In this document: positions 5,216-37,396 of the stretch, in pieces
Position numbering within the stretch: position 1 is the first letter of the stretch
Layout: each line of letters begins with the position of its first letter
Source: a virus
IMG/VR virus record: IMGVR_UViG_3300020119_000106
Span: 1 to 40,587 of that record
Direction: 5' to 3' (one strand)
Length of the DNA stretch: 40,587 bases
The notes under the pieces: generated by a model
Told to the model about the DNA's origin: nothing
Seen by the model: the letters and a program-made list of their open reading frames with translations, nothing else
The model's database searches: none
Position numbers and translations under genes: made by a program

Positions 5216-6247
5216 TCATTGGGCCTCGGTTTTCACGGGCTTCTTCGGTGATCGCTTCGTCTTCTCGGGCTGCGACGTGCGTTCGCGCATCAGCTCCCCG
5301 AGTGCATCAAAGGGCAGCTGCCCGTAAACCAGTTCCACCATTCGTGCGTCGCGATGGCCGAGCATCTTTCCGATGAGATGCGGCTCGACGCCCATGGCTC
5401 GGAGGATGTTGCCGTGCGAGCGCCGGAGGTCGCGCGGTGACACGCGGGGCACCCCCGCCTTCTTGCAGGCGACGGTCATGTCCCGACGGACGTTGCCCCA
5501 GGGTTCGAAGGGGGCACCAGCGGCAGCAAGCTCAGCCATCCGAGCAAACGGCCTGAGGACCGGGATCGTACGCCATCGGTGACGGTTCTTGGAGCCGCGT
5601 ACCAGGATGGACGGTGCCTTGTCGGCGAGCTTGAAGTCGGCGCGCTCGGCCAGCCACACGCTCTTGAGGTCGGCGCCAGTGGCCACGATGAAGGCGCACA
5701 CCGCGGCGCGCTTGGGGCTCAGGGCGCGGATGAGTGACGCGGCCTGCTCCAAGGTAAGAGCACGGGTGCCGGGCGTGTACTTGATCTTGAAGTTGTGCGG
5801 CATCACCGCGTCGAGGCTGCGGTGGTACTTGCCCTGGCGAGCCGCCAGCCGGAGAGCGCCACGAAGGGTGGATAGCTCCTTGCCCTGCGTTGACAGCTCG
5901 GCGCCTTCCTGGTCCCGCTTCAGCAGGTAGCGGTCGACCGCCTTGGCGTCGATTTCGACCAGCAGCGTCTCGTCTCCGAGCACGCGCACCAGGTGGCCCA
6001 AGTGGAAGCCGTACATCTTCAGCGTTCCCTCGGCCTTTCGGCGCTGTCGCTGCTGGGCGACGAACTCCTGGAGGGCTTCTGTGAGCGTGGCTTCGTGCGC
6101 GGCTGCGTATGTCGGATCGGCTGCGCGCCGCTCGATGTTGGCGGCTGCGAGCTTCGCGACTTCCCGGTCCTTCGTTTTGAGCGAACGGCGCTTCCCTCGA
6201 AACTGGAAGTAGTAGGTGCCGTTTTCGTGTCGGTAGACTCGTGCCAT
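5216..6247 (-). CDS. int: Tyrosine-type site-specific integrase
   Basis: A 343-residue integrase starting at ATG 6247 (MARVYRHENGTYYF). Residues 1-40 look like an arm-binding domain, about 52-150 the core-binding (SAM-like) domain, and about 160-320 the catalytic domain. Catalytic residues seen are Lys220 (GSKNRHRWRTIPV), Arg275 (PRDLRRS), His298 (MLGHRD) and Tyr308 (ELVYGQL). Two positions are unusual: the TGxR box reads TGADLKSV, so the first catalytic Arg is not where expected, and the HxxR box reads RDLR. It acts at the nearby tRNA-Phe-like attP. The gene lies partly inside the excisionase-like frame. Confidence 0.9.
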   Translation of the reverse strand: MARVYRHENGTYYFQFRGKRRSLKTKDREVAKLAAANIERRAADPTYAAAHEATLTEALQEFVAQQRQRRKAEGTLKMYGFHLGHLVRVLGDETLLVEIDAKAVDRYLLKRDQEGAELSTQGKELSTLRGALRLAARQGKYHRSLDAVMPHNFKIKYTPGTRALTLEQAASLIRALSPKRAAVCAFIVATGADLKSVWLAERADFKLADKAPSILVRGSKNRHRWRTIPVLRPFARMAELAAAGAPFEPWGNVRRDMTVACKKAGVPRVSPRDLRRSHGNILRAMGVEPHLIGKMLGHRDARMVELVYGQLPFDALGELMRERTSQPEKTKRSPKKPVKTEAQ

Positions 6248-6399
6248 GGTTGAATCGTGTGGGCTGCGCGCCACTTCTCGAAGTTGCTGCGGGTGACTCG
6301 AACGGTGTTGCCGTGAACAATCCGCGGCATCTCACGCATGACCTCGTAAGCCTTGGACAGGCTGTAGTTCATCGCGTCGGCGATATCCTCGGCGAGCAT
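6019..6399 (-). CDS. Excisionase-like HTH protein overlapping int
   Basis: ATG 6399 opens a compact MerR/excisionase-type winged helix: LAEDIADAMNYSLSKAYEVM, then VHGNTVRVTRSNFEKWRAAH. The HTH part ends near residue 50, close to the integrase start, but the frame stays open for about 76 more codons and overlaps int by 229 nt. That tail is low-complexity Ser/Arg/Pro, as expected of an out-of-frame reading of int, so the functional protein may be mainly the first 55 residues. The role in excision or int control is inferred from position and fold. Confidence 0.65.
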   Translation of the reverse strand: MLAEDIADAMNYSLSKAYEVMREMPRIVHGNTVRVTRSNFEKWRAAHTIQPWHESTDTKTAPTTSSFEGSAVRSKRRTGKSRSSQPPTSSGAQPIRHTQPRTKPRSQKPSRSSSPSSDSAERPRER

Positions 6400-6416: not shown

Positions 6417-6974
6417 TCAGGCGGCCCCCTTGCTCTGATCGCTGGCGATGAGCACGGTGCGTGGAGCCATGTCTTCGCCCGTTACCAGCCACTCAACCGA
6501 ACAGCCGAGCGCGCGAGCGATGCGCACTGCGCTATCAGCCGTCAGCCCGACTCGCTCTGATGATTCGATTCGTGAAAGCGCGGGCTGCAAGATGCCCGCC
6601 GCGCGAGCCAGCGCATTCTGCGACAGCTTCAGCGCCTTCCTTCGCGCAACGCATCTCTCGCCGAAGCCAGAAAACTGCTCGCTTGGCCCACGCCGAACGC
6701 GCTCGGCAAAGGGAATGGTGCTGTTCAGCAATTGGCCTGCGCCATGAAGATTGGCAATCCACCGCTGCTCAGCGAGAAGCGCGGATGTCTCATCCGGAAA
6801 GGAGCCAAGGATTCGCAGCTCAGGTGCGCCAATGGCAGCGATCCAGTCCCGCACTGCCGGTGCGCCGGACCGAGAAGCGTGCGACGTGAGGCGCCTTGCC
6901 GGGTTCGAGCTCTTGCCGACGTAGCGAATCACGTCGCTGCCTGGAGCGAGCAGCGCGTAAACGTAGACGGTCAT
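6417..6974 (-). CDS. GIY-YIG nuclease fused to an XRE-type HTH
   Basis: A 185-residue protein with two domains. Residues 1-90 match the GIY-YIG nuclease: YVYALL in place of GIYYI, RYVGKSSNPARRLTSH with the conserved Arg, the metal-binding Glu in LLAEQRWIANL, and the late Asn in LLNST. Residues about 98-170 are a Cro/CI-type helix-turn-helix: RRKALKLSQNALARAAGI, then LQPALSRIESSERVG and ARALGCSVEWLVTGE. The fusion suggests a nuclease aimed by, or regulated through, operator-type DNA. ATG 6974 overlaps the gene upstream (ATGA). Early left-operon placement implies expression when the repressor is off. Function beyond the domains is not known to me. Confidence 0.8.
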   Translation of the reverse strand: MTVYVYALLAPGSDVIRYVGKSSNPARRLTSHASRSGAPAVRDWIAAIGAPELRILGSFPDETSALLAEQRWIANLHGAGQLLNSTIPFAERVRRGPSEQFSGFGERCVARRKALKLSQNALARAAGILQPALSRIESSERVGLTADSAVRIARALGCSVEWLVTGEDMAPRTVLIASDQSKGAA

Positions 6975-7282
6975 CGGCGCGACCCTTTCTTGAGGAGATA
7001 CGCAACGGAGTCGTGCTCGTGAACGCAGAGCTGCCGCCGGAACTCGTCACTCAGCTGGGGACACGCGAGCACGCGCTCAACCGAGATCGCGTGTATGCAG
7101 TTGACCCACCCGAACAGAGCTCGCTCCGAAATGCCGAGCCATTTCGCGGCACGTGCGTTAGTCGCGCCCTGAACGGAGATCGCGCGCAAAAGCGCAACGG
7201 CAATAAGTTGCCGATGTTTCGACACGCGAGCGTCACGTACACTGGCCGAGTGTGGCGCTTTTGGGCTACGTTTCGTGGTCAT
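6971..7282 (-). CDS. HTH-containing regulatory protein (103 aa)
   Basis: ATG 7282 (MTTKRSPKAPHSAS) is preferred over an upstream in-frame start that would lie deep in the neighbour. After a basic N-terminus, residues about 42-62 form a probable helix-turn-helix (NARAAKWLGISERALFGWVN). The C-terminus is helical. It overlaps the upstream Cro-like gene by 17 nt and the GIY-YIG gene by 4 nt, making it the second of three DNA-binding proteins at the start of the left operon. It may be a CII- or Cro-like regulator; target unknown. Confidence 0.6.
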   Translation of the reverse strand: MTTKRSPKAPHSASVRDARVSKHRQLIAVALLRAISVQGATNARAAKWLGISERALFGWVNCIHAISVERVLACPQLSDEFRRQLCVHEHDSVAYLLKKGSRR

Positions 7283-7562
7283 GTCCGACCCCCGCAAAAG
7301 GCTGAACCGCAACGGCGTCGTCCTTTTTCCGATGATCGGCGTGCGGCCCCCAGGAGTCGGGGGGTACCTTTCCGCCAGTCCAAGTGGCAATGTCGACTCG
7401 GACAGCGGGCGACGGAGCTGCCTGCCTGGTCAGCCAGTAGTACAAGGCGGTACGAGTGACGTTGAGCGCCTTGGCGCACTGCCCTCGCGTCACCTCGTGG
7501 TCCTTCAGAAAGTCGGACAGCAGGTCAGGCCCATCGCCGACCTCGGGTTGGATATCGTCCAT
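7266..7562 (-). CDS. Cro-like HTH regulator, first gene of left operon
   Basis: A 98-residue protein. Residues 14-60 contain a compact helix-turn-helix (FLKDHEVTRGQCAKALNVTR, then TALYYWLTRQAAPSP), like the Cro/YdaS group of small phage regulators. The tail is short and acidic, then His-rich. ATG 7562 lies only 9 nt after the proposed -10 of the left promoter, so its mRNA is probably nearly leaderless, and I see no ribosome site. It is transcribed away from the repressor, the place Cro occupies in lambdoid phages. Confidence 0.7.
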   Translation of the reverse strand: MDDIQPEVGDGPDLLSDFLKDHEVTRGQCAKALNVTRTALYYWLTRQAAPSPAVRVDIATWTGGKVPPDSWGPHADHRKKDDAVAVQPFAGVGHDHET

Positions 7563-7569
7563 TGTCGTG

Positions 7570-7599
7570 ACATGTTAATGAACCTGAACCGACCTGCAA
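7570..7599 (-). promoter_or_regulatory. Left early promoter with operator (PL/OL-like)
   Basis: On the minus strand: -35 TTGCAG (7599-7594), 16-bp spacer, -10 TAACAT (7577-7572). The 20-bp operator 7570-7589 overlaps the spacer and -10 and contains TGAACC twice in tandem. Its exact reverse complement lies at 8051-8070 in the facing promoter. Transcription should start 2-3 nt before the Cro-like start codon. Confidence 0.65.
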
Positions 7600-7616
7600 G
7601 CGAAATCGCCACTTCA

Positions 7617-7632
7617 GTTCATTCTGGTGAAC
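7617..7632. promoter_or_regulatory. Palindromic candidate operator before the repressor gene
   Basis: GTTCA-N6-TGAAC, a 16-bp palindrome sharing the TGAAC/GTTCA half-site with the two promoter operators. It lies 15 bp before the repressor ATG, next to a weak -10-like TATGCT (7635-7640), so it may serve autoregulation. Confidence 0.45.
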
Positions 7633-7646
7633 GATATGCTGATGGC

Positions 7647-8009
7647 ATGGCAGTCCCGGACGACGACCGGGGGGAAGCTCTCGCCTGGTACTTTCGCCTT
7701 CTAGTGCGACAGGAACTGGAGAAGGGCATGACACGCGCACAACTGTGCCAGCGCTTGGGGATCGAGAAGGGGCATCTCTCGCAGATCGAAAACGGCAAGC
7801 TCGGAATAGGGGTTCCGAAGCTCGTCCAATTCGCTTCCGCTTTCGGCGTGATGCCAGGGGAGCTGCTCGATCGCGCGCTCAGCTGGTGGGAGAAGTTCGG
7901 CCGCAAGGAACGAGCTCGAGTCCTTGCCGAGCGCGCCGAGAAGGCCGCCGCCAAGGCCAACGAGTCCGGCGAGCACCCCAGCCAAGCCCCCATCAAAGCC
8001 GCCCGCTGA
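7647..8009 (+). CDS. Prophage repressor, short XRE family (CI-like)
   Basis: A 120-residue protein with an XRE helix-turn-helix at residues about 10-70: LLVRQELEKGMTRAQLCQRL, GIEKGHLSQIENGKLGIG and LVQFASAFGVMPGELLD. A Lys/Ala-rich helical tail follows. There is no S24/LexA-type self-cleavage domain, so induction must work differently from lambda CI (partner, antirepressor or instability). ATG 7647 is chosen because it starts just before the HTH; in-frame ATGs at 7570 and 7576 would place coding sequence over the operator. The gene is flanked by mirror-image operators, which supports its role as the master repressor. Confidence 0.8.
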   Translation: MAVPDDDRGEALAWYFRLLVRQELEKGMTRAQLCQRLGIEKGHLSQIENGKLGIGVPKLVQFASAFGVMPGELLDRALSWWEKFGRKERARVLAERAEKAAAKANESGEHPSQAPIKAAR

Positions 8010-9812: not shown

Positions 9813-10096
9813 GCATGGATCGCGTGCTGGTGCGCGTCGAGCGCGAGCGCCAGCGACAAGAAGCGCTGAGGGTCGCTGGCAAGTTCGCCTTCACATGCGC
9901 GGACGCTGGCATGACCAATGCGGAGCGCTTCATGGTGCTCGCCGAAGAGTTCGGAGAGGTCGCCCATGAGCTGAACGAAGGTATCGGTGACGGGCGCAGC
10001 GTATCGCTTGAGCGCCTGCGTACGGAGCTCGTGCAGGTCGCCGCTGTGTGCGTGGCTTGGTGCGAGGCCATCGACGGCGGGAGGGCGGAGCGGTGA
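9809..10096 (+). CDS. MazG-like nucleotide pyrophosphohydrolase
   Basis: A 95-residue protein of the all-alpha NTP pyrophosphohydrolase (MazG-like) type. The metal-binding EExxE pattern is seen in FMVLAEEFGEVAHELNEG, and the second helix pair in RLRTELVQVAAVCVAWCEAI. Phage members trim nucleotide pools or (p)ppGpp-like signals during infection; the substrate cannot be read from sequence. It starts in an ATGA overlap. A second, different MazG-like gene lies at 13005. Confidence 0.75.
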   Translation: MSMDRVLVRVERERQRQEALRVAGKFAFTCADAGMTNAERFMVLAEEFGEVAHELNEGIGDGRSVSLERLRTELVQVAAVCVAWCEAIDGGRAER

Positions 10097-10266
10097 CCTG
10101 CTGCCAACATTCTCAGTACAGCTTCGTCTTGCTCAACGGCATCTACGCGCGCTGCCAGCGTTGCGGGCATGAGTTCATGGTCATACTCGGCGGCCCTGAC
10201 CGACGCGGGTACTGCGAGGCTGATGGCTTGCAGAACGATGTGCCTGGAGTGGAGGCGCGGCAATGA
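10093..10266 (+). CDS. Small zinc-ribbon protein (57 aa)
   Basis: GTG 10093 start in a GTGA overlap. Paired cysteines near the start (TCCQHSQ) and in the middle (CQRCGHEFM) form one probable zinc ribbon, with a further Cys near the C-terminus. Its stop overlaps the exonuclease-annealase start, so it may be translated together with it. Function unknown. Confidence 0.6.
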   Translation: MTCCQHSQYSFVLLNGIYARCQRCGHEFMVILGGPDRRGYCEADGLQNDVPGVEARQ

Positions 10267-11750
10267 ATGCGAAGCTGGAAACCAAACAGCAGGTCCTGCT
10301 CATCGACCTGGGCAGCCTGTTCTGGCCGGCGTGGTTCTCGTCGATCAAGGACGAGCTGAGCGCCGCTCACGATCGCTCGGTCAGCGTGGTCCGACGCATG
10401 CGCGAGACCTACCCGGGCGCGCTGGTCGCGGTGTGCTGTGACTCCCCGTCTAACTTTCGCAAAGAGCTGGAGCCGAGCTACAAGGCGAACCGCCCGCCGC
10501 GCGACTCCGCCGCTTTCGAGCAGTTGCGGCTGGTGAAGGAGACGCTCGCGAAAGACGGACTGCTCGTCTGGGAGGCGGACGGCTTCGAGGCGGACGACGT
10601 GCTTGCGACGGCTTGCCGAGCCGCCGTGAAAGCTGGTCATGAGGTGGTGGTCGCCAGCGCCGACAAGGACCTGACGCAGCTAGTCGAGCATGGCGTCTCC
10701 TGGGTGAGCCCCAAGACTGGCGAGCTGCTGACGCGCGACGGCGTGCGGGCGAAGTTCGGCGTGTGGCCCGAGCAGATGCGCGACTACCTCGCGATGTGCG
10801 GCGACTCCAGCGACAACGTGCGCGGTGTGCAAGGCGTCGGGCCGAAGGGAGCGGTCAAGCTACTCGAGGAATACGTCACCCTCGAACAGGTGATGGCGGA
10901 GGTCGTGAAGCCGCGCGCGAAGCCGGTGGCGACGCTGAACATTGACGCGAAGCTGAAGGAGTCGCTCGCGTGGATGGCGACGACGGTCAAGCTCGTGTCG
11001 CTCCGCTACGACGTGCCGATTAGCTGGGAAGAGATTTACGAGAAGCGCGAAGTGAAACCGCTCACCAAGGAAGCCGCTATGCCAGAGATGACTGATGCCG
11101 AATACGAGTCGGCCGAACGAGAGATGATTGCCGATGGGCACGCGACCGACGCCGCCGTCGCCGATGCTGAGCCTAAGGCGCAGCTGGTCCGGCGAGAGGC
11201 TGAGCCGGCGCGGAGCGTGGCTATGGCCGTCGTCGCGCCTCCCAGCTGGGAGCTCGCGCTGGAGCCAACGACGCTCAAGCTCGCCTATACGCTTGCGCAG
11301 GACCTGTTTAACTCGCGGCTCTACTCGCGCTTTCCGTCTGCCGAAGCCATCTTCGCAGTCATCATCCGCGGTCGAGAGATGGGGCTCGGCGCGCTGACCT
11401 CGCTCGACCTGTTCCACATCGTGGAGGGCAAGCCGGCGCCGCACGCGCACTTCATCATTGCTCGCGCGAAGGCCTCCCCTGAGTGCGAGTACCTGGAATA
11501 CATCGGCGGGGACTCGACCTATGCCGAGTGGGAAGGGCAGAGCAAGCGCGGTGCTGCGCTCGGGCGTCAGCCAGTGAAGCTCCGCTACACCATCGAGCAG
11601 GCGAGGAAAGCCAACGTCGTCAAGCAGGGCAGCAACTGGGAAAAGCGGCCCGACGAAATGTTGAGGAAGACTGCGGGCGTCCAGCTCGCTCGCGTGATCG
11701 CGCCTGGTGCGACAATGGGTCTCTATTCGCAAGAGGAGCTGGCAGGTTGA
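10263..11750 (+). CDS. FEN-type 5'-3' exonuclease fused to RecT-like annealase
   Basis: A 495-residue two-domain protein. Residues 10-265 are a full flap/5'-3' exonuclease as in Pol I and T5 D15: LLIDLGS (Asp15), CCDSPSNFRKELEPSYKANR (Asp60 and arch Lys/Arg), FEADD (109-112), ADKDL (Asp134, Asp136), GDSSDN (Asp181, Asp184), then the helix-hairpin-helix GVQGVGPKGAVKLL. All acidic metal ligands appear present. Residues 268-335 are an Ala/Glu-rich linker. Residues 336-495 match RecT/Bet-type single-strand annealing proteins: AVIIRGREMGLGALTSL, HIVEGKPAPHAHFI, RYTIEQARKANV and WEKRPDEMLRKTAGVQLARV, ending GLYSQEEL. The chain would resect 5' ends and anneal the exposed strand, work done by two proteins (Exo and Bet) in lambda. 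Confidence 0.85.
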   Translation: MNAKLETKQQVLLIDLGSLFWPAWFSSIKDELSAAHDRSVSVVRRMRETYPGALVAVCCDSPSNFRKELEPSYKANRPPRDSAAFEQLRLVKETLAKDGLLVWEADGFEADDVLATACRAAVKAGHEVVVASADKDLTQLVEHGVSWVSPKTGELLTRDGVRAKFGVWPEQMRDYLAMCGDSSDNVRGVQGVGPKGAVKLLEEYVTLEQVMAEVVKPRAKPVATLNIDAKLKESLAWMATTVKLVSLRYDVPISWEEIYEKREVKPLTKEAAMPEMTDAEYESAEREMIADGHATDAAVADAEPKAQLVRREAEPARSVAMAVVAPPSWELALEPTTLKLAYTLAQDLFNSRLYSRFPSAEAIFAVIIRGREMGLGALTSLDLFHIVEGKPAPHAHFIIARAKASPECEYLEYIGGDSTYAEWEGQSKRGAALGRQPVKLRYTIEQARKANVVKQGSNWEKRPDEMLRKTAGVQLARVIAPGATMGLYSQEELAG

Positions 11751-19724: not shown

Positions 19725-20140
19725 CAGCTGTCCCGCACGGTGTTGTTGCCGGGCTTGCCGCTGTACTTCACCACTTCCAGTGAGGTCGGCGAACCGGTGC
19801 TTGCTCGGGCCAGAAAGATGGTCTCGCTCGGGCCGGCCGTCGGGCAAAGCACCTGTACGAGTTCGCCCGATGGCAGCAGCGCGCCGCGCTGCGGGCTCTG
19901 TCCACCCGTGGCGCTTGCGGCAACCGATGGGTCAATCGTGGCGCCCGAGTTCTTGGTGAAGAAGTAGCGGGAGTCCGCACCCACGCTGCGCAGCCCGAGA
20001 AACTCTCCGTACCAGCCCACAGGGATAGCATCAACGCGACCGCTGCCAGAACCGGCACCCGTTGCAACCGTGTACCCGGCGCAGTCGGTGTTGTTCGTCC
20101 CATCGCCGAAGGTGCCCTTTACGTCATTCGCTCTGTCCAT
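19724..20140 (-). CDS. Small virion or appendage protein (138 aa)
   Basis: ATG 20140 overlaps the previous stop. Gly/Ser/Thr-rich with beta-type patterns (GSGRVDAIPVGWYGEFLGLR, then GELVQVLCPTAGPSETIFLA). No family recognised. By context it may link the appendage protein to the tail. Confidence 0.6.
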   Translation of the reverse strand: MDRANDVKGTFGDGTNNTDCAGYTVATGAGSGSGRVDAIPVGWYGEFLGLRSVGADSRYFFTKNSGATIDPSVAASATGGQSPQRGALLPSGELVQVLCPTAGPSETIFLARASTGSPTSLEVVKYSGKPGNNTVRDS

Positions 20141-23064
20141 CAGGTGTCCTGCTGTTGCGCGCTTGGTAAGCGCATGGGGTTGGTCAACTTGCTCGCGTCG
20201 ATGTTGCTCTGCGGCTGCGGCGCGGGCTGCATCGGACGATCGGTTTGCTGTGTCTCGCCGGTCTTCTGCATGTCGGCGAAGGTCTGCTGAATCGATGCGA
20301 GCTTCTGCGGCTCTAGCGAGTCGTCGCCGATGAATCCGAACGCCGTCGAAAGGAAGATGGTCTTTTGGTAAGGGAGGCCCTCTTGACGCTCCGCCACCAT
20401 GTCCGCGACCTTGCTTCGCAGGTCCTGAAACGTCTTCGGGTAGAACTGCTGGACGGCGCTGAGCGCATCGCGGTCGAGCTCTCCGCGTCCTAGGTCCGCA
20501 ATCACGGCCCGCGGGTTCACGGCGCCACGAACGGTCGACAGGTAGGTGCGCATCGCGGTCGGCGGAACCATCGGCTTGACGGCGCGCGGGGTGAGCGAGC
20601 GCGTGGGCGAGTGCGCAGACTGCGGGATTGTCTGGGCCAGGTGCTGGTAGATTTCGAGCAGCTTGCGGCTCGCGGCGGCGCCCACGTCGGGGTATTGGTC
20701 ACTCAGGTGCTCGACGGTATTGGAGACGTGCTGCCCAGCAATCTCAGGCGTTGCCAGTCGCTTCACCTGGTCGACGGTTTCGGTGAATTGCTTGGCCAGC
20801 GCCGGCACGGAGGCTGCGGGACGCGGCATGTCGCGCCCGCGGCCAGTTTCGACCGCGCGCGGAGAGGCTTCGAGCGCCGCAATCGAGCTCGCGGCTTCCG
20901 TCGTCTTGCCGGTGAGCGCACGTGCCGTTGACTCAAGCGTGCCGCCCATCTCGGATGCGTCACGAGCCAGCGCCGCAATCGTCGCATTACCTCGCGTGCG
21001 CATCAGGTTGTTCGCAAGCGCCGTGCCTGCGCCGTACACGAGGCCTCCGAGCGGATGACCGGAGACGGCAGAGGCTAAGAAAGCCGCTATTCCGGTTCCA
21101 TGGTCACTCGGGCTCACGATGCGATTGCCGTGGTTGATGGTCTTTTTCGCAATCTCGCGAAGCGACAGCATCGAGTGGAGCTGGCGCGTCAGGTCCTTGT
21201 AAGCGGTCGGGTCTTCGCCCATTGCGCGCAGCGCGGTCTCAGCCTTGCCGTCGAGATATTCCTTCAGCTGCCGTTCCATGCGCTGCAGGTACTCGGCTGC
21301 CTTCGGCGGAGCTGGCGGCAGCCCGCCTGCGGAGCCCGCCTTCGGCTGGAACACGCTGCGCAATTTCTCCTGCCAGTCTTTGAGCTCCAGAAAGCCAGAT
21401 TTCTCCGGGGCGGGGGCACCAGAAATCGGAAGCGGGCGCAGCTCTTTGCTAACTTCGTTGCCAGCCTCGTCGAAGGTGCGCACCTCGGCCAGGATTTCCG
21501 ATGCACCTGCCTGCTTTGCAGCAAGCAGACGATGGCGTCCGTCGGTCAGGCTGGGCGGAGCACCGGGAGACACTTCCACGCGCACAGGCTTGAACCGCTG
21601 CGACGAGTTCATCGTCTTGCGTTCGCCGAGCGCAATCTGCTGCACTTCCTCGGGCGTTGCTCCGTCGTAGGCGCTGCTATGCACGCGCATGTCGCGCATT
21701 CCTTCGCGCGAGTACTCGAAGTTTTCGACGCCGCTTTCGAGCGCGTCTCGCGGCTGCTTCTCGAGCAGATACCCAAGCTGCTTGTCGACCGCGCGCGCCT
21801 TGCCGCGATCGGGCCCGTTCTTCAGCGCCTTGTACCAGTCCGAAGACTTCACCTGGTCGACGAATTCGCTCGCCCGCGGCGCAACGGTAGCAGCCTCCGG
21901 GTGAGCCTTCAGCGCGGCGTCAATCTCGCCCATGACTCCGGTGCGCTTTGCCCCGACCTCGTCTACGGCGCGGTTCAGCTTCTCGGCGATGTCATCGACC
22001 TTGTCGCCCTTCGCGATGAGCGGCTGCCCCGCGTATTCGCCTGTCTCGAGCTTGTATTTCAGCGCGTCCGCAGTTGCTTGCGGCGCGCGGGCTTCGAGCT
22101 TTCGCAGCTCAGCCTGGCCACCGATCGCGCGCCCCGCGTGCTCCTTCGCGACGGCTTCCAGCGAACTCTTCGATTTGATGAGCGCCGCGCTTCCCAGCTC
22201 GCCGGCAGCTCCCAGCCCTGTGCCGAGCACGCCGCCCAGCAGCGCGCCATGTCCGAGGCCAGATACGAAGTTTTCTACCGTCTGGTCATGGTCCTGCAGA
22301 GCCTGGTCGCTGATGGCGCCTTGCGCACCGTAGAGGCCGCCTTCGACGGCACCCTGTGCGCCGAGCTCGGCTGCGCGCTTGAGCACCTTGCCCGCGACAC
22401 CCTTGCCGCCCAGTGATTCCAGGCCCCTGGCGACCCCGCGCTCGACGATGCTGCCGGCGCCGCTGATAGCCCGCGGCACAGCCCCGACGGCTCGTCCTGT
22501 GGCGCGCAGCGCGCTACCAAGGCCATCTGCCGCTTTGGCTGCGCCCGCCGCTTCCGCGAGAGCTCCACCCTCTGCCAGAGCGCCGGCACCCTCGGCCCCG
22601 AGCACCGCGCCCTCAGCGCCAGCGCTAGCGCCACCGGAGAGCAGCAGGGGAGCAATCGCGCCACCAATTTCGCCGGCCGCGCTTGAGATTGGGTTCTGCC
22701 GCTTCAGCGCGCCCAGCGCTTCGGCGCCGCCCAGCGCGCGCCCGACCACATCGGAGCCGCCAAAGGTCAGGGTTCGAGCCGCGCCGGCGGCCGCCGCCTT
22801 CGCCTCATTGCCGAAGCCCTTGCCGTACTGGCGCTTCTCGTTCAGCTCAGCAAGCTCGGTGGGGGCGACGACGCGAATGCCGGGGTGAGCCACGTCGCCC
22901 GGGTCGACCGTGATGAGTCGGTCGCGAGAGTCGCGCGCGAATACCTTCTGCCCCTTTGGGAAAAAGGCCTTCCCTGCGCGCGCAGCTGCGGCGTACTGCT
23001 CGGCGGGGATGGGCGTCCCGTCGGCAGTGTACGCTTGCGGCTGAACGAGCTCCGGCTCGGCCAT
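20140..23064 (-). CDS. Large ejection-type virion protein with ParB-like segment
   Basis: A 974-residue protein. Residues 90-300 are Gly/Ala-rich and hydrophobic, as in proteins that line or cross membranes during DNA ejection. Residues about 490-537 resemble the ParB/sulfiredoxin-type fold: SSQRFKPVRVEVS followed by SLTDGRHRLLAAKQAGASEI, with the DGxHR core at 508-512. The C-terminal 400 residues are helical, ending Gln/Pro-rich. Size and place, with the 619-residue protein, match the internal virion proteins of podoviruses. ATG 23064 overlaps the upstream stop (TAATG). The ParB-like segment may be an enzymatic cargo or a structural relic. Confidence 0.7.
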   Translation of the reverse strand: MAEPELVQPQAYTADGTPIPAEQYAAAARAGKAFFPKGQKVFARDSRDRLITVDPGDVAHPGIRVVAPTELAELNEKRQYGKGFGNEAKAAAAGAARTLTFGGSDVVGRALGGAEALGALKRQNPISSAAGEIGGAIAPLLLSGGASAGAEGAVLGAEGAGALAEGGALAEAAGAAKAADGLGSALRATGRAVGAVPRAISGAGSIVERGVARGLESLGGKGVAGKVLKRAAELGAQGAVEGGLYGAQGAISDQALQDHDQTVENFVSGLGHGALLGGVLGTGLGAAGELGSAALIKSKSSLEAVAKEHAGRAIGGQAELRKLEARAPQATADALKYKLETGEYAGQPLIAKGDKVDDIAEKLNRAVDEVGAKRTGVMGEIDAALKAHPEAATVAPRASEFVDQVKSSDWYKALKNGPDRGKARAVDKQLGYLLEKQPRDALESGVENFEYSREGMRDMRVHSSAYDGATPEEVQQIALGERKTMNSSQRFKPVRVEVSPGAPPSLTDGRHRLLAAKQAGASEILAEVRTFDEAGNEVSKELRPLPISGAPAPEKSGFLELKDWQEKLRSVFQPKAGSAGGLPPAPPKAAEYLQRMERQLKEYLDGKAETALRAMGEDPTAYKDLTRQLHSMLSLREIAKKTINHGNRIVSPSDHGTGIAAFLASAVSGHPLGGLVYGAGTALANNLMRTRGNATIAALARDASEMGGTLESTARALTGKTTEAASSIAALEASPRAVETGRGRDMPRPAASVPALAKQFTETVDQVKRLATPEIAGQHVSNTVEHLSDQYPDVGAAASRKLLEIYQHLAQTIPQSAHSPTRSLTPRAVKPMVPPTAMRTYLSTVRGAVNPRAVIADLGRGELDRDALSAVQQFYPKTFQDLRSKVADMVAERQEGLPYQKTIFLSTAFGFIGDDSLEPQKLASIQQTFADMQKTGETQQTDRPMQPAPQPQSNIDASKLTNPMRLPSAQQQDT

Positions 23065-24923
23065 TACTCGACCACCTCTTGAGCGGACTCAGGCAAATCG
23101 CTGTCGTCCGGCTCAGCGCTGCCAGCTGAGGAGGCGCCGCGGCCGAGCGTTTCCTTGTTGGCCTTGATTTGGTCCTGCATCTGGCGTTTGAGCTCGTCGA
23201 GCTTCGCGGCTGCGCCGGGCGAGCGGAAGAAGTGCTCGGGGTCGCCGACCATGCGCTCGATGTTCTGCTTCGTCGCTTCCTGGAAGGTCGCCACGCCCAT
23301 CGCGTCGTGCGCTTCGAACACCAATCCGCCCAGCAGCGACTCAGCGCGTGCGCGGTCCTCATCGCCCCATGCGCGGGATGAAGCGCTGTCGGTCAGCTGC
23401 TTCAGCCGGTCAATCTTGCCGATCGCCTCGTTTGCGGATCGGACCACCTTCTGCGCAGCGGTCTTTTCCTTCGCGTTGCCGGCATAGCGAACCGAGCCAT
23501 CCGGGAAGCGCACCGCGAGGGGGGAGTCCCCCGCGCCAGCGATTGGCTTGCCGTTCGCGTCAGTCCTACCATTGAGGTAGTCGGCGGTTTTCTTCGCCTC
23601 GGCCGCAGCCTTGAGCCCGCGCAAAAAGTTCCCGCCACCTCCCCCGCCGGTCACGCGCTGCTGGAGCGTATCCTCCACGGCCTTTTCGCCCGCGAGTTGG
23701 TACGCCTGAGCCTTGAGCTGCTGGCGCTGCAGGGCGCCTTGCTGCAGAGCCTCTTGCCCCTTGGCGTAGGCGTCCGCGTTACCGATTTGGTCGAGCTGAT
23801 TGGCAAGCATCGCATCGCGCACCGCGTAGGCGCGTGCGCGCATGTCGTTCTCCGCCATCTCCGGAGTGCCGTAGAGAGCGAGCGCTTGGCCGTACTGGTT
23901 GTCGGCGCGCTTTGCTGAATCGCTCGCGCGCTCGTACTTCTCGCGCTCAGTCTGCATCCATTGGTCGATCGCCCGGTTTGCCATGTCGAGCCCGGGGTTT
24001 TCTCCGCCCCGCAAGCCCTGGACGTAGCCACCAAGCGCAATCGAAAGGCCCGTCATGACCTGCGAAGCGACGCCCTTTTCGCCCCAATACCGATGCAGGT
24101 CCGGCGGCGGCATCGTCGCCACTTCCTGCTCACGCTGGTCGCGGGTCTGCTGCAATTGCTGCAGTCGGTCGTTGACCGCCTGGCGCTGCAAGCGCTGGTC
24201 GATCACGTCGTCCATTTGCTGCGTGTATTGCGCGTCACGGCGCGCCAGCAGCTGTTCTCTCTGTGCGTGAATGTCGTCCAGGTCGGCGACTTGCTTCGCC
24301 TCGAATTCCTGCCCGCGGCGCTCGATGTCAGCGCTGAGCTCCTTTGGTACTTCGCCGTAGGTTGTGTATTTCTCCGTGCGCTTGCCGAGTGCGAGCCCGG
24401 ACTTGACGGGACCGCCGCCTCCGCGCGTGGCTTCGCGAAACGCCAGCTCTTGTTCCGGCGTGAGCGTGAGCGCGCCATCGTTCGCGGGCTGCTCGCCGCC
24501 ACCGCGAGGGGCCGAATGTGGAGCAAGGTCCGGGCCGGTTCCGCCACGCGACGCGCGTGGGAGGGGCACGTCGAACTTGGTCGGTATCGCCGACCCGGAC
24601 TCATGTGAGACGGATGCCGGGGTCTGCAAGCGATCGATAAGCGACCGCGCGTCCTGCTGCTGCTGCTCCGCCACGCTCGGCACCCCGCGCCCGTAGTTCG
24701 CGCTGGGCATCCCAAACACGCCCGCCCCGTCTCCCAAATCTCGCGGATCGCCACCGCCCGGGCCAGCCACGGCAAGCGCAGGTGATGGCGGGCGCATCGC
24801 GTTCGCCGCAATCTCCGTGTGCCCCATGGCCCGAAGCTGCTCCGGCGACAGCGCCATCGGCATCACCGTACCGTCAGGCAGGTGCACATCAGCGAGACCA
24901 TCAGCGCGAAGGGAGTAGGCCAC
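23064..24923 (-). CDS. Ejection-type internal virion protein (619 aa)
   Basis: GTG 24923 start. Residues about 195-275 form a long Gln/Arg-rich coiled coil (LQRQAVNDRLQQLQQTRDQR). A small hydrophobic patch follows (QVMTGLSIALGGYVQGL), and the remainder is helical with a Gly run (VTGGGGGGNF). No enzymatic motif seen. Coiled-coil internal proteins of this size are usual next to nozzle genes in podoviruses, where they form the ejection conduit. Assignment rests on context and composition. Confidence 0.6.
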   Translation of the reverse strand: MAYSLRADGLADVHLPDGTVMPMALSPEQLRAMGHTEIAANAMRPPSPALAVAGPGGGDPRDLGDGAGVFGMPSANYGRGVPSVAEQQQQDARSLIDRLQTPASVSHESGSAIPTKFDVPLPRASRGGTGPDLAPHSAPRGGGEQPANDGALTLTPEQELAFREATRGGGGPVKSGLALGKRTEKYTTYGEVPKELSADIERRGQEFEAKQVADLDDIHAQREQLLARRDAQYTQQMDDVIDQRLQRQAVNDRLQQLQQTRDQREQEVATMPPPDLHRYWGEKGVASQVMTGLSIALGGYVQGLRGGENPGLDMANRAIDQWMQTEREKYERASDSAKRADNQYGQALALYGTPEMAENDMRARAYAVRDAMLANQLDQIGNADAYAKGQEALQQGALQRQQLKAQAYQLAGEKAVEDTLQQRVTGGGGGGNFLRGLKAAAEAKKTADYLNGRTDANGKPIAGAGDSPLAVRFPDGSVRYAGNAKEKTAAQKVVRSANEAIGKIDRLKQLTDSASSRAWGDEDRARAESLLGGLVFEAHDAMGVATFQEATKQNIERMVGDPEHFFRSPGAAAKLDELKRQMQDQIKANKETLGRGASSAGSAEPDDSDLPESAQEVVE

Positions 24924-27299
24924 TCAGAACGCCCCCGGGCGCGCGTAGAGCGATGGGTCATGCGCTGGCATTGGGCCGAGCCCAGAGCCCTGCAGGGCCG
25001 CTAGCTGGCGCTCGAGCTCTTCCGTCTTGCGCTGCTGCTCAGAGAGCGCCGCGGTGTTCACCATGGTGAGCCCCTCCGTGTCGACCACCTTGCCGTGCGG
25101 CGTATCGCGAACGGTTCCAGCAGCGGCAGAGTGCTCAAGGTCCTGAGCCATGGGGCCCACGTGGCGGCCGGGGGCGGCGCCGGGCGCGTGCGGGTCCTTG
25201 TATTCGTAGGAGTAGCCGCGCGCCGGCCGAAGGTCGACAGCGGGCGCCTGCTGCTGGCGCGCGTAGGCGTCGTCTAGCGCCGCGGTATCGGGCGGGGCAG
25301 GCGCAAAGGATGCCGTAGGCGGCGCGTCCGCGCTCAGCGCTGCCAGCTGAGTCTCCAGCTCACGAATGCGCGTCTTGCTGTGCACATCGCTCGATCGCTG
25401 CCCGCCGAGCCTGTTCAAGTCGTAGTTTGCGTCGCCGATGTAGCCTGTTTCGCCATCGCGAGTGCTGCCGGGGGATACCGGTGCGCCTGACGACGCTGCG
25501 TGCTGGATTGGCTGAATCGGCTGGCCCGCGAGGTAGGCCGCGATCGCCGGGTCGAACTGCGGCGCGTTGAATACGTCACCCCAAGCTGGTGGCGCAGCAG
25601 ATGCCGCCGGCATGAACGGCGACGCCTGCGCACCAATCGAGCGAATAGGCGATGCCGTTGCGCTGTGTCCGAGCATCGACGTTGCTGCGCTGCTCATCGG
25701 GGTCGACGCTGGCGCGCGCGTAAGGTTGCCAAGGATTGAAGCGTTGGCGTCTGCCACGGAAAGCGGGGGAGCAGAGGCGCCCGTGAGCTTGCCCGGAGCC
25801 TGCTGCATGCGCGCCATCACGGCGGACTGCATCGCGCTTGGCCCAGGGCCAGCTCCAGGAACTCGGTTCAGCACGTCGGCGGGAGCGAACTGGCTCGCGC
25901 GGTAGCCCGAGTTCAGCGCGCCGAGCACCTGCGCATACGAAGGCGTTGCGTACGAGCCTTCGGGGATGCCGGGGTCAGCGGGCGCGGACATGCTCTTTCC
26001 GACGCCTTTCCAGAAGGGCTCAGCGGGCGGCGTCGCAGCCGCCGCGTTCTTCGTGTCGGTCGTCGGCGAAGTAAGAGTGATAGGGCGAATGTTCTTCTTC
26101 TGGTTCTCGTCGGACGAGCGATACTGGTCTTTGTTAAGCTGGCCGGCGGTATTGCTGCTGACCGTGATGCCCTGGTAAGGCGACGTTGAGCCGCTCGGGT
26201 TGTTGGCATTCACCGGCGCAGAATCGCCCGCGTTTGAGACAGCGTTCGCTGCCGCGCCGAAGCCGGCTGCCGCCATGTTCAGGTTGGCGGCATCGTGCGC
26301 GTTCGCGTTGTTCTGATTCGCGATATTAGTCGTCGTCGTCGAGCTGAGCCGCCCGGTGTCCGCGTTGGCTTGCGCTCCAAGCGCATTCGAGGCCTGGTTC
26401 GCGCCGAACTGGTAGGCGTTCTGCCCTTGCGCATTCGCCTGCATGCCGAGCTGTTGCTGCTGAGCGCCAAGCTGGCTGTAGATGCCGCTCGTCTGGTTGT
26501 TGATTTGCTGCTGCGACTGACCAAGTGCGGCGTTCTGCGCCTGAAGCCCTTCGTTGCCCGCTCGCACAGTCGTTGCCTGGTTGCCGGCCTGTCCAGCGAG
26601 CGCGCCCGCGCTGCCGTAAGCGTTCCCAGCGCCTTGGAGCGCCGCTAGCTGCATCTGGTTGTAGTTCTGCTGCTCCTGCAGGCGCGCTGCCGCCGCTTGC
26701 TGGTTCGTCGTCTGGTTAATCATGGCATTGTTGAACGCCGCTTGACCCATCGCCGCTTGTCCGCTGCCGAGCGAGCGCCCAGAGCGCGCCATTGCAAGCT
26801 GCTGGTTTATGGCGTCGCTCTGACCGAGACGCAGCTGCGCTTCGGCGACGCTTGGACCCATCGCTGCCGTACCCTTGTCGGTCAACAAATCGCCTGTGCT
26901 GTTCAGTCGACCGATCCCCGCGTTGGTTGCGCTGAGCGCCGCGAGCTGGCGCTGCTGGTCTGCCGGATTCGCGGCGATTTGCTGCGCGCCACGGAGCTGT
27001 GCGGCGTTCGCGATATCGAAGTTCGAGTTGGCGTTGCCGTAGAGCGCGGCCTCGCGCGCGTTCTGTGCTTGCTGCTGCTGTAACCCCTCAGAGTACTGCA
27101 ATGCGGCGAGCTGATTGGTGAGCTCGTTGCCGCCGTATTGCACGGGTGGAGGGGCAGGAGCCGTATTGTCGTCGCCGCCGCCCAAAAGGCTAGTCAGCCC
27201 GCCTATCACCGCTCCGCCGGCCATGCCCCACGGCCCTAGCGGAGCTCCGGCCGCCGCTCCCATGCCAGCTCCGCCAAGTACTTTGCCAGCGTCAGCCAT
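24924..27299 (-). CDS. Gln/Asn/Ala-rich virion protein with S74-type domain
   Basis: A 791-residue protein starting at ATG 27299 (TGATG overlap). Residues 1-45 are Gly-rich and hydrophobic, and 60-360 are strongly Gln/Asn/Ala-rich helices. Two motifs resemble the Ser-Asp...Lys start of Peptidase_S74 intramolecular chaperones: SSDENQKKNIRPI (about 395-407) and SSDVHSKTRIREL (about 636-648). The later part has YSYEYKDP, RHVGPMAQDLEHS (about 712-724), and LTMVNTAALSEQQRKTEELE, all typical of S74. Such domains help trimers fold and then cleave themselves off. Virion component between nozzle and ejection proteins. Confidence 0.7.
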   Translation of the reverse strand: MADAGKVLGGAGMGAAAGAPLGPWGMAGGAVIGGLTSLLGGGDDNTAPAPPPVQYGGNELTNQLAALQYSEGLQQQQAQNAREAALYGNANSNFDIANAAQLRGAQQIAANPADQQRQLAALSATNAGIGRLNSTGDLLTDKGTAAMGPSVAEAQLRLGQSDAINQQLAMARSGRSLGSGQAAMGQAAFNNAMINQTTNQQAAAARLQEQQNYNQMQLAALQGAGNAYGSAGALAGQAGNQATTVRAGNEGLQAQNAALGQSQQQINNQTSGIYSQLGAQQQQLGMQANAQGQNAYQFGANQASNALGAQANADTGRLSSTTTTNIANQNNANAHDAANLNMAAAGFGAAANAVSNAGDSAPVNANNPSGSTSPYQGITVSSNTAGQLNKDQYRSSDENQKKNIRPITLTSPTTDTKNAAAATPPAEPFWKGVGKSMSAPADPGIPEGSYATPSYAQVLGALNSGYRASQFAPADVLNRVPGAGPGPSAMQSAVMARMQQAPGKLTGASAPPLSVADANASILGNLTRAPASTPMSSAATSMLGHSATASPIRSIGAQASPFMPAASAAPPAWGDVFNAPQFDPAIAAYLAGQPIQPIQHAASSGAPVSPGSTRDGETGYIGDANYDLNRLGGQRSSDVHSKTRIRELETQLAALSADAPPTASFAPAPPDTAALDDAYARQQQAPAVDLRPARGYSYEYKDPHAPGAAPGRHVGPMAQDLEHSAAAGTVRDTPHGKVVDTEGLTMVNTAALSEQQRKTEELERQLAALQGSGLGPMPAHDPSLYARPGAF

Positions 27300-30200
27300 C
27301 AAACGATCCTGTCTGCGGGCTTGTTGAGCCGCGCGCCTTCTGGTGCACCATTTTCCAATGCCAAAGCGATCAGCGCAACGCCTTCTGTAGCGCTCGCTTC
27401 AGAAATCTGAACGCGAAGCGCGCTCAGTGAACGCTGCTCCGTCGAGCCGAGGTCAGTGAGTATCGTGCTGAGCTCTCCGACCACGGTATCGGGAGCGACG
27501 TTCGTGTAAACCCGAGTCGCCGTATGTGCGACACCGCGATCGGTGGTCTTGTCGACGGTCAGCGTGCACGCGCTGCGCAGCTCGAGCAGGGTTGATAGGC
27601 GCTGGACGCTACCTTGCTCGGTTGGGCCGAAGGGGCGCAGGTCTCCAGTGCGAACCTGCATCGTGATCGGTTGCGCAGCGTCGGCGAATGCGCCGTTCGT
27701 CACTTTGATAAAGGTCCCGTCGTTGATGTCCGACGTGAACATGGCGAGCTCGCCGCCATACCAAGAGCCAATCCCGTATTGAGCCGCAGGCGTGCCAAGC
27801 GCCCCAGAATCAGTAATAAGATCGACACTCCAGCACTTGTGCACGAGGTCATAGACAAGCTGCGCGCCCTGATTAGAAGCATTGACGCAGACCCAGCGCA
27901 CGGTTTGCTCCGTCGCCTTTACCAGGGCTGCACAGCCGCAAATCACCGGGTACGTGGCGAGCGTATCCATCACAGAGTCCACCGCTTGTGGTGCGCCGAA
28001 CCCGCGCGGCAGCAGGTACAGACCCCGTGATGTCTGGAAAAACACGCCGTCGTCACAAGCGAATACGCTGCGTGGCTCGATGCATCCAAGCGCAAATGGG
28101 AGTCGCGTGAGCCCGCCGAAGTCACCGATCCCCGCGTCGTCGGGCCCTTCGCCGCTGGCGATGTAAATGCCCTCCTGGGTGAACAGCACGAGCGAGTCGC
28201 ACCAGGCAATCCCCGTGCACGCGCTCGGCAGAACGATCCGGAAGGCGTCGGAGTCCGCAAAAGATGGCGATTGGTCGCCAAGAATCAGCTTTGACGCGTG
28301 CACCACGTCGGGGCGAATCAGCCCTCCCACGTATAGCCGGCCACCGCCGACGCATGCGAAGCGTCCACCCGGCGGGAAGGTGTTGGCCAGCGTCTGCCCG
28401 ACCTGGGTATACACTATCGGCTGAACCGCAGCCGTCGCGTCGCCGAGCCGGTCGACCACCGACACCGTTCCCGTCGCGGCGATCCCAGGGCCGCTGATGA
28501 TTGCCACCAAATAGAACGTCTTGTCGTTGCTCAGCGTTCGATAGATTTCGATCGAATAGCTGGCTCGCTGAGTCGCTCCGAGCTGGGCAATCACTAGCGT
28601 GTTCTGTGTCTGCCCAGCGCCCATTGTCGCTTTGACCGGGTTCGCCGGGGCAGAAAGCTCAAAACGGCCGGCGCCATTATTCGACCGGAACACGACCGTG
28701 TAGTAGTAGTCCGACGAGGCGGTGAGCGAGCCGCCGGCTGCGGGCGTAATTGTGAGAATCGCCGGCTGATGGAGGAACCCCTCCTCGACGGCGCCCCGAT
28801 CATCCACGCGGGTTAGCGTCCCCATCGGAACGAAGCTGCAGGTGTCGGCGAAGGCCGATTGCACCGATCGCCGCGAGGGCGAATCGCTGAAGTGCTTCAG
28901 CTGCAAGATCCGGAACTCGTGACCCGAGGCGACGCCAGCGCCGCTTTTAGAGATCTGCGACGGTAGGGGGATTGCGTAGGCCGCGCTCGTGCCGATTCTA
29001 GAGACGACGGGTAGTCCTTTGAGATCCACCGCCGCCGACGTGACCAGGATGTCTTGAGCCGAGAACTGGATCGGGCACGAGGCAGGAGAAATCCCGCTCG
29101 GGGCAGGGAGCCTCAATAACACCGCGTAGTACGGGCCGCCCGTCTCAACCTTTGCCCAGATGTAGCAGAGCGTGCCCACGCTAAACGGGACCGATAGCGG
29201 GTAAAGGCACGGCTGGATATTCACGCCCGACAGCACTGCTGTCGTCGACACGTCAACAAAAGAAAAGGTCCCCGGCGCCGCCCCTGCGATCGCTGAAGCG
29301 TAAACGGCGCGGGCGCTACCATTCGACAGCAGCGCCAGTAGCGGGCGCGACGTATCCGCCGCCGAAAGGGTCTGCGTGCCGACTAGCGCGCCGAGCCCAG
29401 TCGCGTACACGCGAACCTTGGAGGTCGTCGATGCTGTAATCGCGTAACCGACATAGATGGGTGTAGTCGTCGAGCCAACGATCGAAGACGACGTGATCGG
29501 GTTCGCCTCTGCGAACGTCGTCGTTGAGGATTGCGCCAGCGCCGCGCTCAAAAGCCCGAATGTCAGCGCGTTGCCACCGTAGGTCGTAACGAACAGGCAA
29601 TTGGTGGAATTGTACGGGTACACGTCCCAGGAGAGCGTTCCGCCTCCAGTAACAATAATCTCGGCACCGAAGCCGGTCAGCGACGTGAGCACTCGGCCAC
29701 GGATTGTCGTGTCTCCGGCGTTCAAATAGGTCAGCGCTAGGGTGGAGCCGATCAAGACCAGCCGCGGGTACAGGATGCCGCCTACTCCTAGCGCCGCCGC
29801 CCGGAAGTCCTGCATAAAAGCCAGGGTCTGGTTTGTGGCTTCGACCGCGGTTACCCGAATAATTTTGTCAGTAGCGAAGGACGGGTCTGTGTACGTGACC
29901 GCGGTCCACAGATACCCGAATGCGTAGCAGGAGGCGCAAGGCGTCGTGTCCTGTCCGGCGGGAGACCGAGTTGGGACTGGGAAAAAAGAGGTATCCGGCA
30001 GCCAGCCGCTCACCGCGCCAGCGACGCGCGGCATAAGCGTCGGATTGTCGATAGCGACAGCCGATATGAAGTCCGCTCCAGCCTGGTCGTACAGAGAGCA
30101 TCCGTCGTCAGTGATGATGAACGACGACTCCAGCGCGCCACCGATACAGCGCGCCGCATTCCCGCTGGGCGTCGTTGCTCCTGGATAGGCGTAGCCGAAG

Positions 30201-30343
30201 CGCTTTCCGATGCGCCCATTCTTGCGCATGCGCGCATTCTGCATGTACGACAGCGCAGGCAGCTGAAGCACCGCGCGCTCGATGCCCTCGTTTTGGCCCT
30301 GCTCGAACACGGCCGCGGTGAGCTTGATCTTTGGATCTCCCAT
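27299..30343 (-). CDS. Tail nozzle / tail tubular B-like protein (1014 aa)
   Basis: ATG 30343 overlaps the previous stop. The N-terminus (ALSYMQNARMRKNGRIGKRF) and the many beta repeats with Gly and aromatic turns match the large nozzle (tail tubular B, or stabilisation) proteins of short-tailed phages. The region GGRLYVGGLIRPDVVHAS, then SLVLFTQEGIYIASGEGPDD, is propeller-like and is shared by this group. Its length (1014) is at the high end. It forms the distal tail tube through which DNA leaves. Confidence 0.75.
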   Translation of the reverse strand: MGDPKIKLTAAVFEQGQNEGIERAVLQLPALSYMQNARMRKNGRIGKRFGYAYPGATTPSGNAARCIGGALESSFIITDDGCSLYDQAGADFISAVAIDNPTLMPRVAGAVSGWLPDTSFFPVPTRSPAGQDTTPCASCYAFGYLWTAVTYTDPSFATDKIIRVTAVEATNQTLAFMQDFRAAALGVGGILYPRLVLIGSTLALTYLNAGDTTIRGRVLTSLTGFGAEIIVTGGGTLSWDVYPYNSTNCLFVTTYGGNALTFGLLSAALAQSSTTTFAEANPITSSSIVGSTTTPIYVGYAITASTTSKVRVYATGLGALVGTQTLSAADTSRPLLALLSNGSARAVYASAIAGAAPGTFSFVDVSTTAVLSGVNIQPCLYPLSVPFSVGTLCYIWAKVETGGPYYAVLLRLPAPSGISPASCPIQFSAQDILVTSAAVDLKGLPVVSRIGTSAAYAIPLPSQISKSGAGVASGHEFRILQLKHFSDSPSRRSVQSAFADTCSFVPMGTLTRVDDRGAVEEGFLHQPAILTITPAAGGSLTASSDYYYTVVFRSNNGAGRFELSAPANPVKATMGAGQTQNTLVIAQLGATQRASYSIEIYRTLSNDKTFYLVAIISGPGIAATGTVSVVDRLGDATAAVQPIVYTQVGQTLANTFPPGGRFACVGGGRLYVGGLIRPDVVHASKLILGDQSPSFADSDAFRIVLPSACTGIAWCDSLVLFTQEGIYIASGEGPDDAGIGDFGGLTRLPFALGCIEPRSVFACDDGVFFQTSRGLYLLPRGFGAPQAVDSVMDTLATYPVICGCAALVKATEQTVRWVCVNASNQGAQLVYDLVHKCWSVDLITDSGALGTPAAQYGIGSWYGGELAMFTSDINDGTFIKVTNGAFADAAQPITMQVRTGDLRPFGPTEQGSVQRLSTLLELRSACTLTVDKTTDRGVAHTATRVYTNVAPDTVVGELSTILTDLGSTEQRSLSALRVQISEASATEGVALIALALENGAPEGARLNKPADRIV

Positions 30344-30771
30344 CAGGCCGCCCACCAGTTTGCGCCGTCGTAGTACAGCAAGAACAATCCAACCGTTCCG
30401 GCTCCGTAGAACTTGCTGGTCGCGTTGTTGACGAGCCTCGCGACGTTGTTAGCCATGCCAGACGGCTTGATTGTCAAGGTGTTCGCAGCCGCGCGCTTGA
30501 GCAACCACGCAAACCCGGGCTTACCGTCAGAGGGCGCGGACAAGACCAAGAGCACATTGCCCGTCGTGACATCGCACAGCGCAATCTGGCCGGTCGTGAT
30601 GATCGACTTATCGACGCTGGTGTTTGGATTGACCCGCACCTGTGCCGGCTGGTCAATTTTCCCATCCGAAAGCGCCTGCGTCTCGGTGGCGACGTTCTGT
30701 TCGAAGCGTGACAGCTGCTGGCCGAGGCGAGACGCGTTATCGGTGATGAATTGCTTGATGAGCTCGAGCAT
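30343..30771 (-). CDS. Small fibre-like tail protein (142 aa)
   Basis: ATG 30771 overlaps the connector stop. A helical N-terminus (ELIKQFITDNASRLGQQLSR) precedes a beta-rich part (ITTGQIALCDVTTGNVLLVL and NTLTIKPSG). It ends in GLFLLYYDGANWW, a C-terminal motif common in trimeric phage fibre or head-spike proteins. Likely a structural protein attached at the connector or tail; exact position unknown. Confidence 0.6.
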   Translation of the reverse strand: MLELIKQFITDNASRLGQQLSRFEQNVATETQALSDGKIDQPAQVRVNPNTSVDKSIITTGQIALCDVTTGNVLLVLSAPSDGKPGFAWLLKRAAANTLTIKPSGMANNVARLVNNATSKFYGAGTVGLFLLYYDGANWWAA

Positions 30772-33923: not shown

Positions 33924-33930
33924 AGCCTCA

Positions 33931-33952
33931 CTCCGCGTGGTGAGACGCGGAG
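33931..33952 (-). promoter_or_regulatory. RNA hairpin at the capsid gene ribosome site
   Basis: On the minus-strand RNA, CTCCGCGT pairs perfectly with ACGCGGAG (8 bp) around a 6-nt loop. The 3' arm contains the GGAG ribosome site of the major capsid gene. No U run follows, so a terminator is unlikely. Better read as a translational switch or an RNA-processing site between scaffold and capsid genes. Confidence 0.6.
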
Positions 33953-33965
33953 CAAACGCTGAGGA

Positions 33966-35120: not shown

Positions 35121-35126
35121 GGTTCC

Positions 35127-37118: not shown

Positions 37119-37396
37119 CAGGTCTTCACTCCAAGTTGCGAAAGTCCGTGCCGCTCGCACAGGTGCGGCGCGAAGTGGAACCCTGCGCGCTCCTGGCAGC
37201 CGCCAACCGAGCAAGTGCCAGCCGGCTTTTCTTCAGCTTCGGGCTCAAAATCCAGCGCTGGGGCAGGGACGGTATCGGGATGCGCCGGCTCGAGTTCGAC
37301 TTCGGAGAAGCCGTGTATCTCCGCCTGCGGCTCACTCAACACTAGGCGACGCACACCCGCAGCGCGCATCTCGGCAGCCAATGAGAGCCAGTTCAC
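37118..37396 (-). CDS. Small protein with C-terminal zinc-finger-like cluster (92 aa)
   Basis: GTG 37396 start in a GTGA overlap. Residues 1-25 are helical, the middle is acidic and Pro-rich, and the C-terminus has CSVGGCQERAGFHFAPHLCE followed by RH. This gives C-x4-C-x12-C-x2-H, a possible zinc finger. It lies directly before the portal gene. Function unknown. Confidence 0.6.
   Translation of the reverse strand: MNWLSLAAEMRAAGVRRLVLSEPQAEIHGFSEVELEPAHPDTVPAPALDFEPEAEEKPAGTCSVGGCQERAGFHFAPHLCERHGLSQLGVKT

Follow-up and report, generated by a model that had tools for sequence, protein, structure and literature searches.

A FEN-type nuclease joined to a RecT/Red-beta-type annealing core in a widespread phage protein family: a probable single-chain exonuclease-annealase recombinase

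SynExo two-component recombinases pair an exonuclease with an annealase. The two partners are mutually matched, and their coupling is hard to study and hard to export to other bacteria. In the lambda Red system the pair consists of a 5'-3' exonuclease of the toroidal lambda Exo type (Exo, or Red-alpha) and the RecT/Red-beta annealase Red-beta. In the RecE-RecT systems, represented by the Rac prophage and by gp53-gp54 of Gordonia phage Wizard, a RecE-type nuclease is followed by a separate RecT with a C-terminal extension, and the pair is located beyond integrase and repressor. Phage T7 provides a further combination, in which gp6, an exonuclease of the FEN family, works with the annealing ssDNA-binding protein gp2.5; the two are separate proteins, and gp2.5 is an OB-fold SSB and not RecT-like. 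The Pol I 5' nuclease, Xni/ExoIX and T5 FEN are FEN nucleases that are either fused to a polymerase or stand alone, with no annealase joined to them in the records searched.

The phage protein described here retains the exonuclease-annealase pairing of SynExo systems, but places it in one chain and employs a nuclease that is neither of the YqaJ/lambda-Exo nor of the DUF3799 type. Its nuclease domain is homologous to those of Pol I, Xni/ExoIX and T5 FEN and carries the same acidic ligands, while its annealing core matches the Red-beta structure 7ujl and has a detectable relative in Wizard gp54. Unlike Red-beta, it has no C-terminal domain for binding Exo and SSB. Both halves belong to families already known, and they are paired much as in SynExo systems. 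What sets the protein apart from every system named above is its single chain, its FEN nuclease and its lack of the C-terminal domain, and the combination is apparently undescribed: no account of such a FEN-annealase fusion was found in open-licence papers.

The fusion is encoded by the IMG/VR virus record IMGVR_UViG_3300020119_000106, the 40,587 bases of which were analysed as a whole and are referred to below as the window. Judging by its gene content, the source virus is a temperate tailed phage. The gene and its setting are as follows.

10263..11750, + strand: FEN-RecT fusion gene, 495 aa (Pfam, PHROGs, more than 50 contigs with the same architecture)
5216-6274, - strand: tyrosine integrase
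6417-6974, - strand: CI/Cro-like regulator
7275-8009, + strand: CI/Cro-like regulator
32688-37214, - strand: head and portal-like genes

The fusion gene forms part of a rightward early operon beyond the integrase and repressor. Its reading frame begins with the ATG at 10263 and runs without interruption up to the stop codon at 11748-11750, overlapping the upstream ORF (10048-10266) by four bases (ATGA) and the next ORF, with its ATG at 11750, by one (TGATG). A first-pass annotation had read this ORF as an exonuclease and an annealase in one polypeptide; the ORF itself and the Pfam and PHROGs matches agree with its coordinates and domain limits to within a few residues. The parts of the protein are listed below.

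10293..11027, + strand: 5'-3' exonuclease domain of FEN type, residues 11-255, with conservation as far as about 262 (PF02739, PF01367)
11049..11258, + strand: disordered acidic linker, residues about 263-332 (low pLDDT, fast divergence)
11094..11105, + strand: acidic-aromatic motif DAEY, linker residues 278-281 (post hoc pattern)
11259..11747, + strand: RecT/Red-beta annealing core, residues 333-495 (PF03837, phrog_4171, 7ujl by profile and fold)
11637..11639, + strand: W459, aligned with Red-beta W143 (profile alignment; invariant in 50 of 50)
11691..11693, + strand: R477, aligned with Red-beta R161 (profile alignment; invariant in 50 of 50)

The nuclease half matches both Pfam halves of the 5'-3' exonuclease above their curated cutoffs (5_3_exonuc_N at residues 11-166, E 5e-28; 5_3_exonuc at 167-255, E 5e-21) and the PHROGs exonuclease family phrog_107 (8e-40). 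Profile matches in the PDB comprise the 5' nuclease of Taq Pol I, E. coli Xni/ExoIX, T5 FEN and T4 RNase H, and the Pol I and Xni nuclease models of NCBIfam match below their whole-protein cutoffs. All nine acidic ligands of FEN enzymes are present (D15, D60, E109, D111, D112, D134, D136, D181 and D184), and these, along with K74 and R77, are invariant across 50 aligned members, one of which is gapped at D15. The nuclease half thus reads, as had been claimed, as a complete member of the FEN / 5'-3' exonuclease superfamily, with the corresponding activity predicted from its sequence.

Assignment of the C-terminal half relies on more distant matches. Pfam RecT (PF03837) passes its cutoff of 24 bits with a score of 35.3, but the match is limited to the final third of the core (residues 436-493). 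The RecT-like PHROGs families phrog_561 and phrog_4171 are both matched, the latter across residues 338-492, and NCBIfam adds a weak match to lambda Bet at the C-terminal end, below the whole-protein cutoff. In a profile search of the PDB with this half, Red-beta 7ujl was the sole sequence matched (E 0.0026). An AlphaFold2 model of the half reached a pLDDT of 89.6, and a fold search of the PDB with this model again returned 7ujl as the sole significant match (E 2e-4, TM 0.57/0.60), at 17% identity between the annealing core and Red-beta. The profile and fold matches to 7ujl rule out the alternative that this half is something other than an annealing protein, and point to a domain of the RecT/Red-beta type with predicted annealing activity. 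W459 and R477 are aligned with W143 and R161, two residues that touch the template strand in the structure of Red-beta (PMC9512822).

The end of the chain differs from that of free annealases. In 51 fused members the protein terminates 0-10 residues past the annealing core, whereas free RecT relatives that are not cut by a contig end continue for 101-126 residues beyond it. The core of the fusion stops where Red-beta 1-177 stops, without the C-terminal partner-binding domain. In Red-beta, annealing needs no more than residues 1-177, and lambda Exo and SSB are bound through the C-terminal domain (PMC9512822, PMC8303780, PMC5052646). With the nuclease attached covalently, an Exo-binding part would be unneeded, and the missing domain is the strongest structural hint at a role of the nuclease half as partner exonuclease. 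Deletion of the C-terminal domain leaves Red-beta able to anneal but not to recombine (PMC5052646); another part must therefore provide the contact with the host or SSB.

The fusion is probably a phage single-chain recombinase of the SynExo exonuclease-annealase type. At double-strand ends the FEN half would strip away the 5'-ended strand, and it might also trim the 5' flaps left by annealing. The RecT/Red-beta core, carried on a flexible acidic linker, would coat the emerging 3' single strand in cis, the resected strand being handed over within the same protein, and would then pair it with a complementary strand. For the phage, the biological role of such resection followed by annealing would lie in end joining, concatemer formation and recombination without RecA. 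The covalent link would stand in for the Exo-binding C-terminal domain of Red-beta, and the FEN domain for a partner nuclease of the RecE/YqaJ or lambda Exo type. Read in this manner, the natural fusion constitutes independent evidence for coupled work of nuclease and annealase, and suggests that a FEN nuclease can fill the place usual for RecE or lambda Exo. It allows a test of whether the C-terminal domain of Red-beta serves mainly as a tether, and is a candidate one-gene enzyme for recombineering.

The same domain order was found in one frame in 51 other IMG/VR contigs, by scans with the whole protein, with its C-terminal part and with an alignment of that part. A genome scan added two more contigs, from MAGs labelled Betaproteobacteria and Myxococcota. 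A sequencing or assembly error merging separate genes, the frameshift that might have produced the fusion, is ruled out by these more than 50 contigs, in which the architecture is held in one frame across 35 clearly different linkers, and it retains next to no probability. All complete members consist of a single open frame, and the polypeptide is accordingly genuine. Identity to the window protein ranges from 32 to 78% across 17 aligned relatives. The ratio dN/dS, where dS was measurable among nine pairs, amounts to 0.06-0.31 for the FEN half and 0.02-0.21 for the RecT half, the annealing core being the more constrained in most pairs examined. The low values in both halves indicate that both are under purifying selection and are being kept. 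The fusion represents a widespread phage family without the C-terminal domain that free Red-beta uses for binding its nuclease, a conclusion that goes beyond the first-pass annotation.

Cultured phages and plasmids yielded no fusion, no record among them having a match that spans 80% of the protein. The best viral-protein match of the full-length model is UniProt A0A6J5MUB0 from an uncultured Caudovirales phage, a 462-aa 'PIN_53EXO domain containing protein' that aligns over the full length at 35% identity; it appears to belong to the same family, though named for the nuclease half only. The MAG L114 is the sole carrier of the fusion among 399 genomes of its order. One further record, IMGVR_UViG_3300046739_000338 (L065, L101), bears 127 identical bases at its contig ends and its fusion gene runs across them, so that it is probably a complete 58-kb genome with the fusion. 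Several other candidates were set aside. A PolA match in an 'Acinetobacter phage' record is surrounded by bacterial housekeeping genes, the 545-aa RecT frame L132 in a bacterial genome is not a FEN fusion, and no annotated RecT adjoins the FEN gene of Rhodococcus phage E3.

Three apparent free annealing cores within the fused clade (L059, L065 and L072) proved to be genes truncated by contig ends, and trees were built without them. In the RecT tree (support 78) as in the FEN tree (support 46), a branch sets the fused proteins apart from the rest, a topology that is compatible with a single fusion event and does not reject it. One pair of relatives shows an unequal divergence of its halves. Between L014:7995-9410 and L016:3226-4644 the annealing halves are 99% identical at the protein level with a dS of 1.3, the nuclease halves are 50% identical, and DNA similarity ends upstream of the linker. 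This pattern suggests either that nuclease halves have been swapped at the linker or that constraint is very unequal, and extreme on the annealing half.

In each of the 32 fusion phages tested, FEN domains number one per genome, the one within the fusion. Family A polymerase (PF00476) was detected neither in the window nor in 31 relatives, and no polymerase domain follows the 5' nuclease, which speaks against a remnant of Pol I. With neither a family A polymerase nor a second FEN in the 32 phages, a flap nuclease could be needed for replication, and the nearest relatives of the nuclease half are the Pol I 5' nuclease, Xni and phage FENs. The protein might accordingly be a replication enzyme, its FEN half removing RNA primers or 5' flaps of the lagging strand and its RecT core merely holding FEN on ssDNA. 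We regard this as unlikely. Host Pol I and Xni already perform primer and flap removal, the residues by which Red-beta holds the template strand are invariant, and the annealing core is more constrained in most pairs. The early-operon locus beyond integrase and repressor, moreover, resembles that of the exonuclease-RecT pair of Wizard.

The gene order of Wizard runs from integrase through repressor to a RecE-like exonuclease, directly followed by the free RecT relative, and the FEN half of the fusion occupies the place of the Wizard exonuclease. This nuclease-first order of the chain speaks for the recombinase reading and against a protein that anneals first, in which FEN would merely trim 5' flaps later and a host or unrecognised nuclease would resect. 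Such a division of labour, which seems improbable to us, is in keeping with the structure specificity of FEN enzymes. An early model of Red recombination likewise has joints trimmed by a 5'-3' exonuclease or by Pol I through its flap activity (PMC7496540). The frequent preference of FEN enzymes in this family for flaps or nicks, rather than blunt ends, weighs against the recombinase reading. The search for partner nucleases was directed at two families only, and neither YqaJ (PF09588) nor DUF3799 (PF12684) was detected in the 32 fusion phages, whose records may be fragments; this again disfavours the anneal-first reading. YqaJ was found in 3 of 12 free-RecT records, and because the other 9 had no match to it either, the missing known partners are weak evidence for FEN as the partner. 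No FEN scored above cutoff in the eight viral records searched that encode a free RecT relative.

The acidic linker between the halves, which had been noticed before, has a pLDDT below 50 over residues 268-332 of the full-length model. It varies from 45 to 196 aa among relatives and diverges faster than the domains in most of nine pairs. The DAEY motif has counterparts in the linkers of relatives (DADF, DIDF, EAEF and DIEY); the pattern [DE][AI][DE][FY], chosen post hoc and counted in related sequences, occurs in 9 of 35 dereplicated linkers as against 0.4 in shuffles. Methionine is enriched 3.3-fold in the first 22 linker residues, where 27 of 36 dereplicated members have one (residue 273 in the window protein, 11079-11081), and may be left over from a former recT start or serve as an internal start. 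In the latter case the gene would give two products, a start at the linker head yielding the annealing domain on its own as well, and many annealase subunits would then share few nucleases, an arrangement compatible with the recombinase reading. Shine-Dalgarno pairing at the first linker ATGs is indeed better than at the other ATGs of the gene, but resampling of synonymous codons with amino acids fixed places this signal at chance level (mean p 0.52). With 6 of 48 members lacking a linker ATG and the sequences being related, a second product appears doubtful.

SSB is encoded by 7 of the 32 fusion phages and in several of them starts at or just past the stop codon of the fusion. Downstream of the fusion at 32 loci lies a conserved protein without known family (e.g. 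L072:875-1336, L008:9407-9811 and L089:5759-6253), for which no Pfam, PHROG or cultured-phage match was found. Its C-terminus is often acidic with a final aromatic residue (DADSIPF, DDADVAF, DEGQIKW), resembling the tip of SSB. Because SSB is encoded at about this position in other fusion phages, this protein may replace SSB or act as a partner of the fusion. Neither SSB nor the conserved small protein is encoded directly downstream of the fusion gene in the window. A more far-reaching version of the recombinase reading, plausible but short of probable, is that of a self-contained one-protein machine. Within an annealing ring or filament, every subunit would bear its own nuclease on a flexible leash, and resection, loading, annealing and flap trimming would take place in a single complex that lacks the Exo-binding C-terminal domain, possibly with new contacts through the linker motif and the downstream small protein.

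Two other regions of the window show unusual gene content. The CI/Cro-type HTH regulator at 6417-6974 (- strand) has a GIY-YIG nuclease match above the Pfam cutoff at its N-terminus (residues 4-74), an unusual pairing with the HTH at residues 111-163. Four big neighbouring ORFs at 20140-30355 (- strand), of 974, 619, 792 and 1018 aa, are nearly without family match, the exceptions being a Peptidase_S74 end in the 792-aa ORF and weak internal-virion and ParB-like matches.
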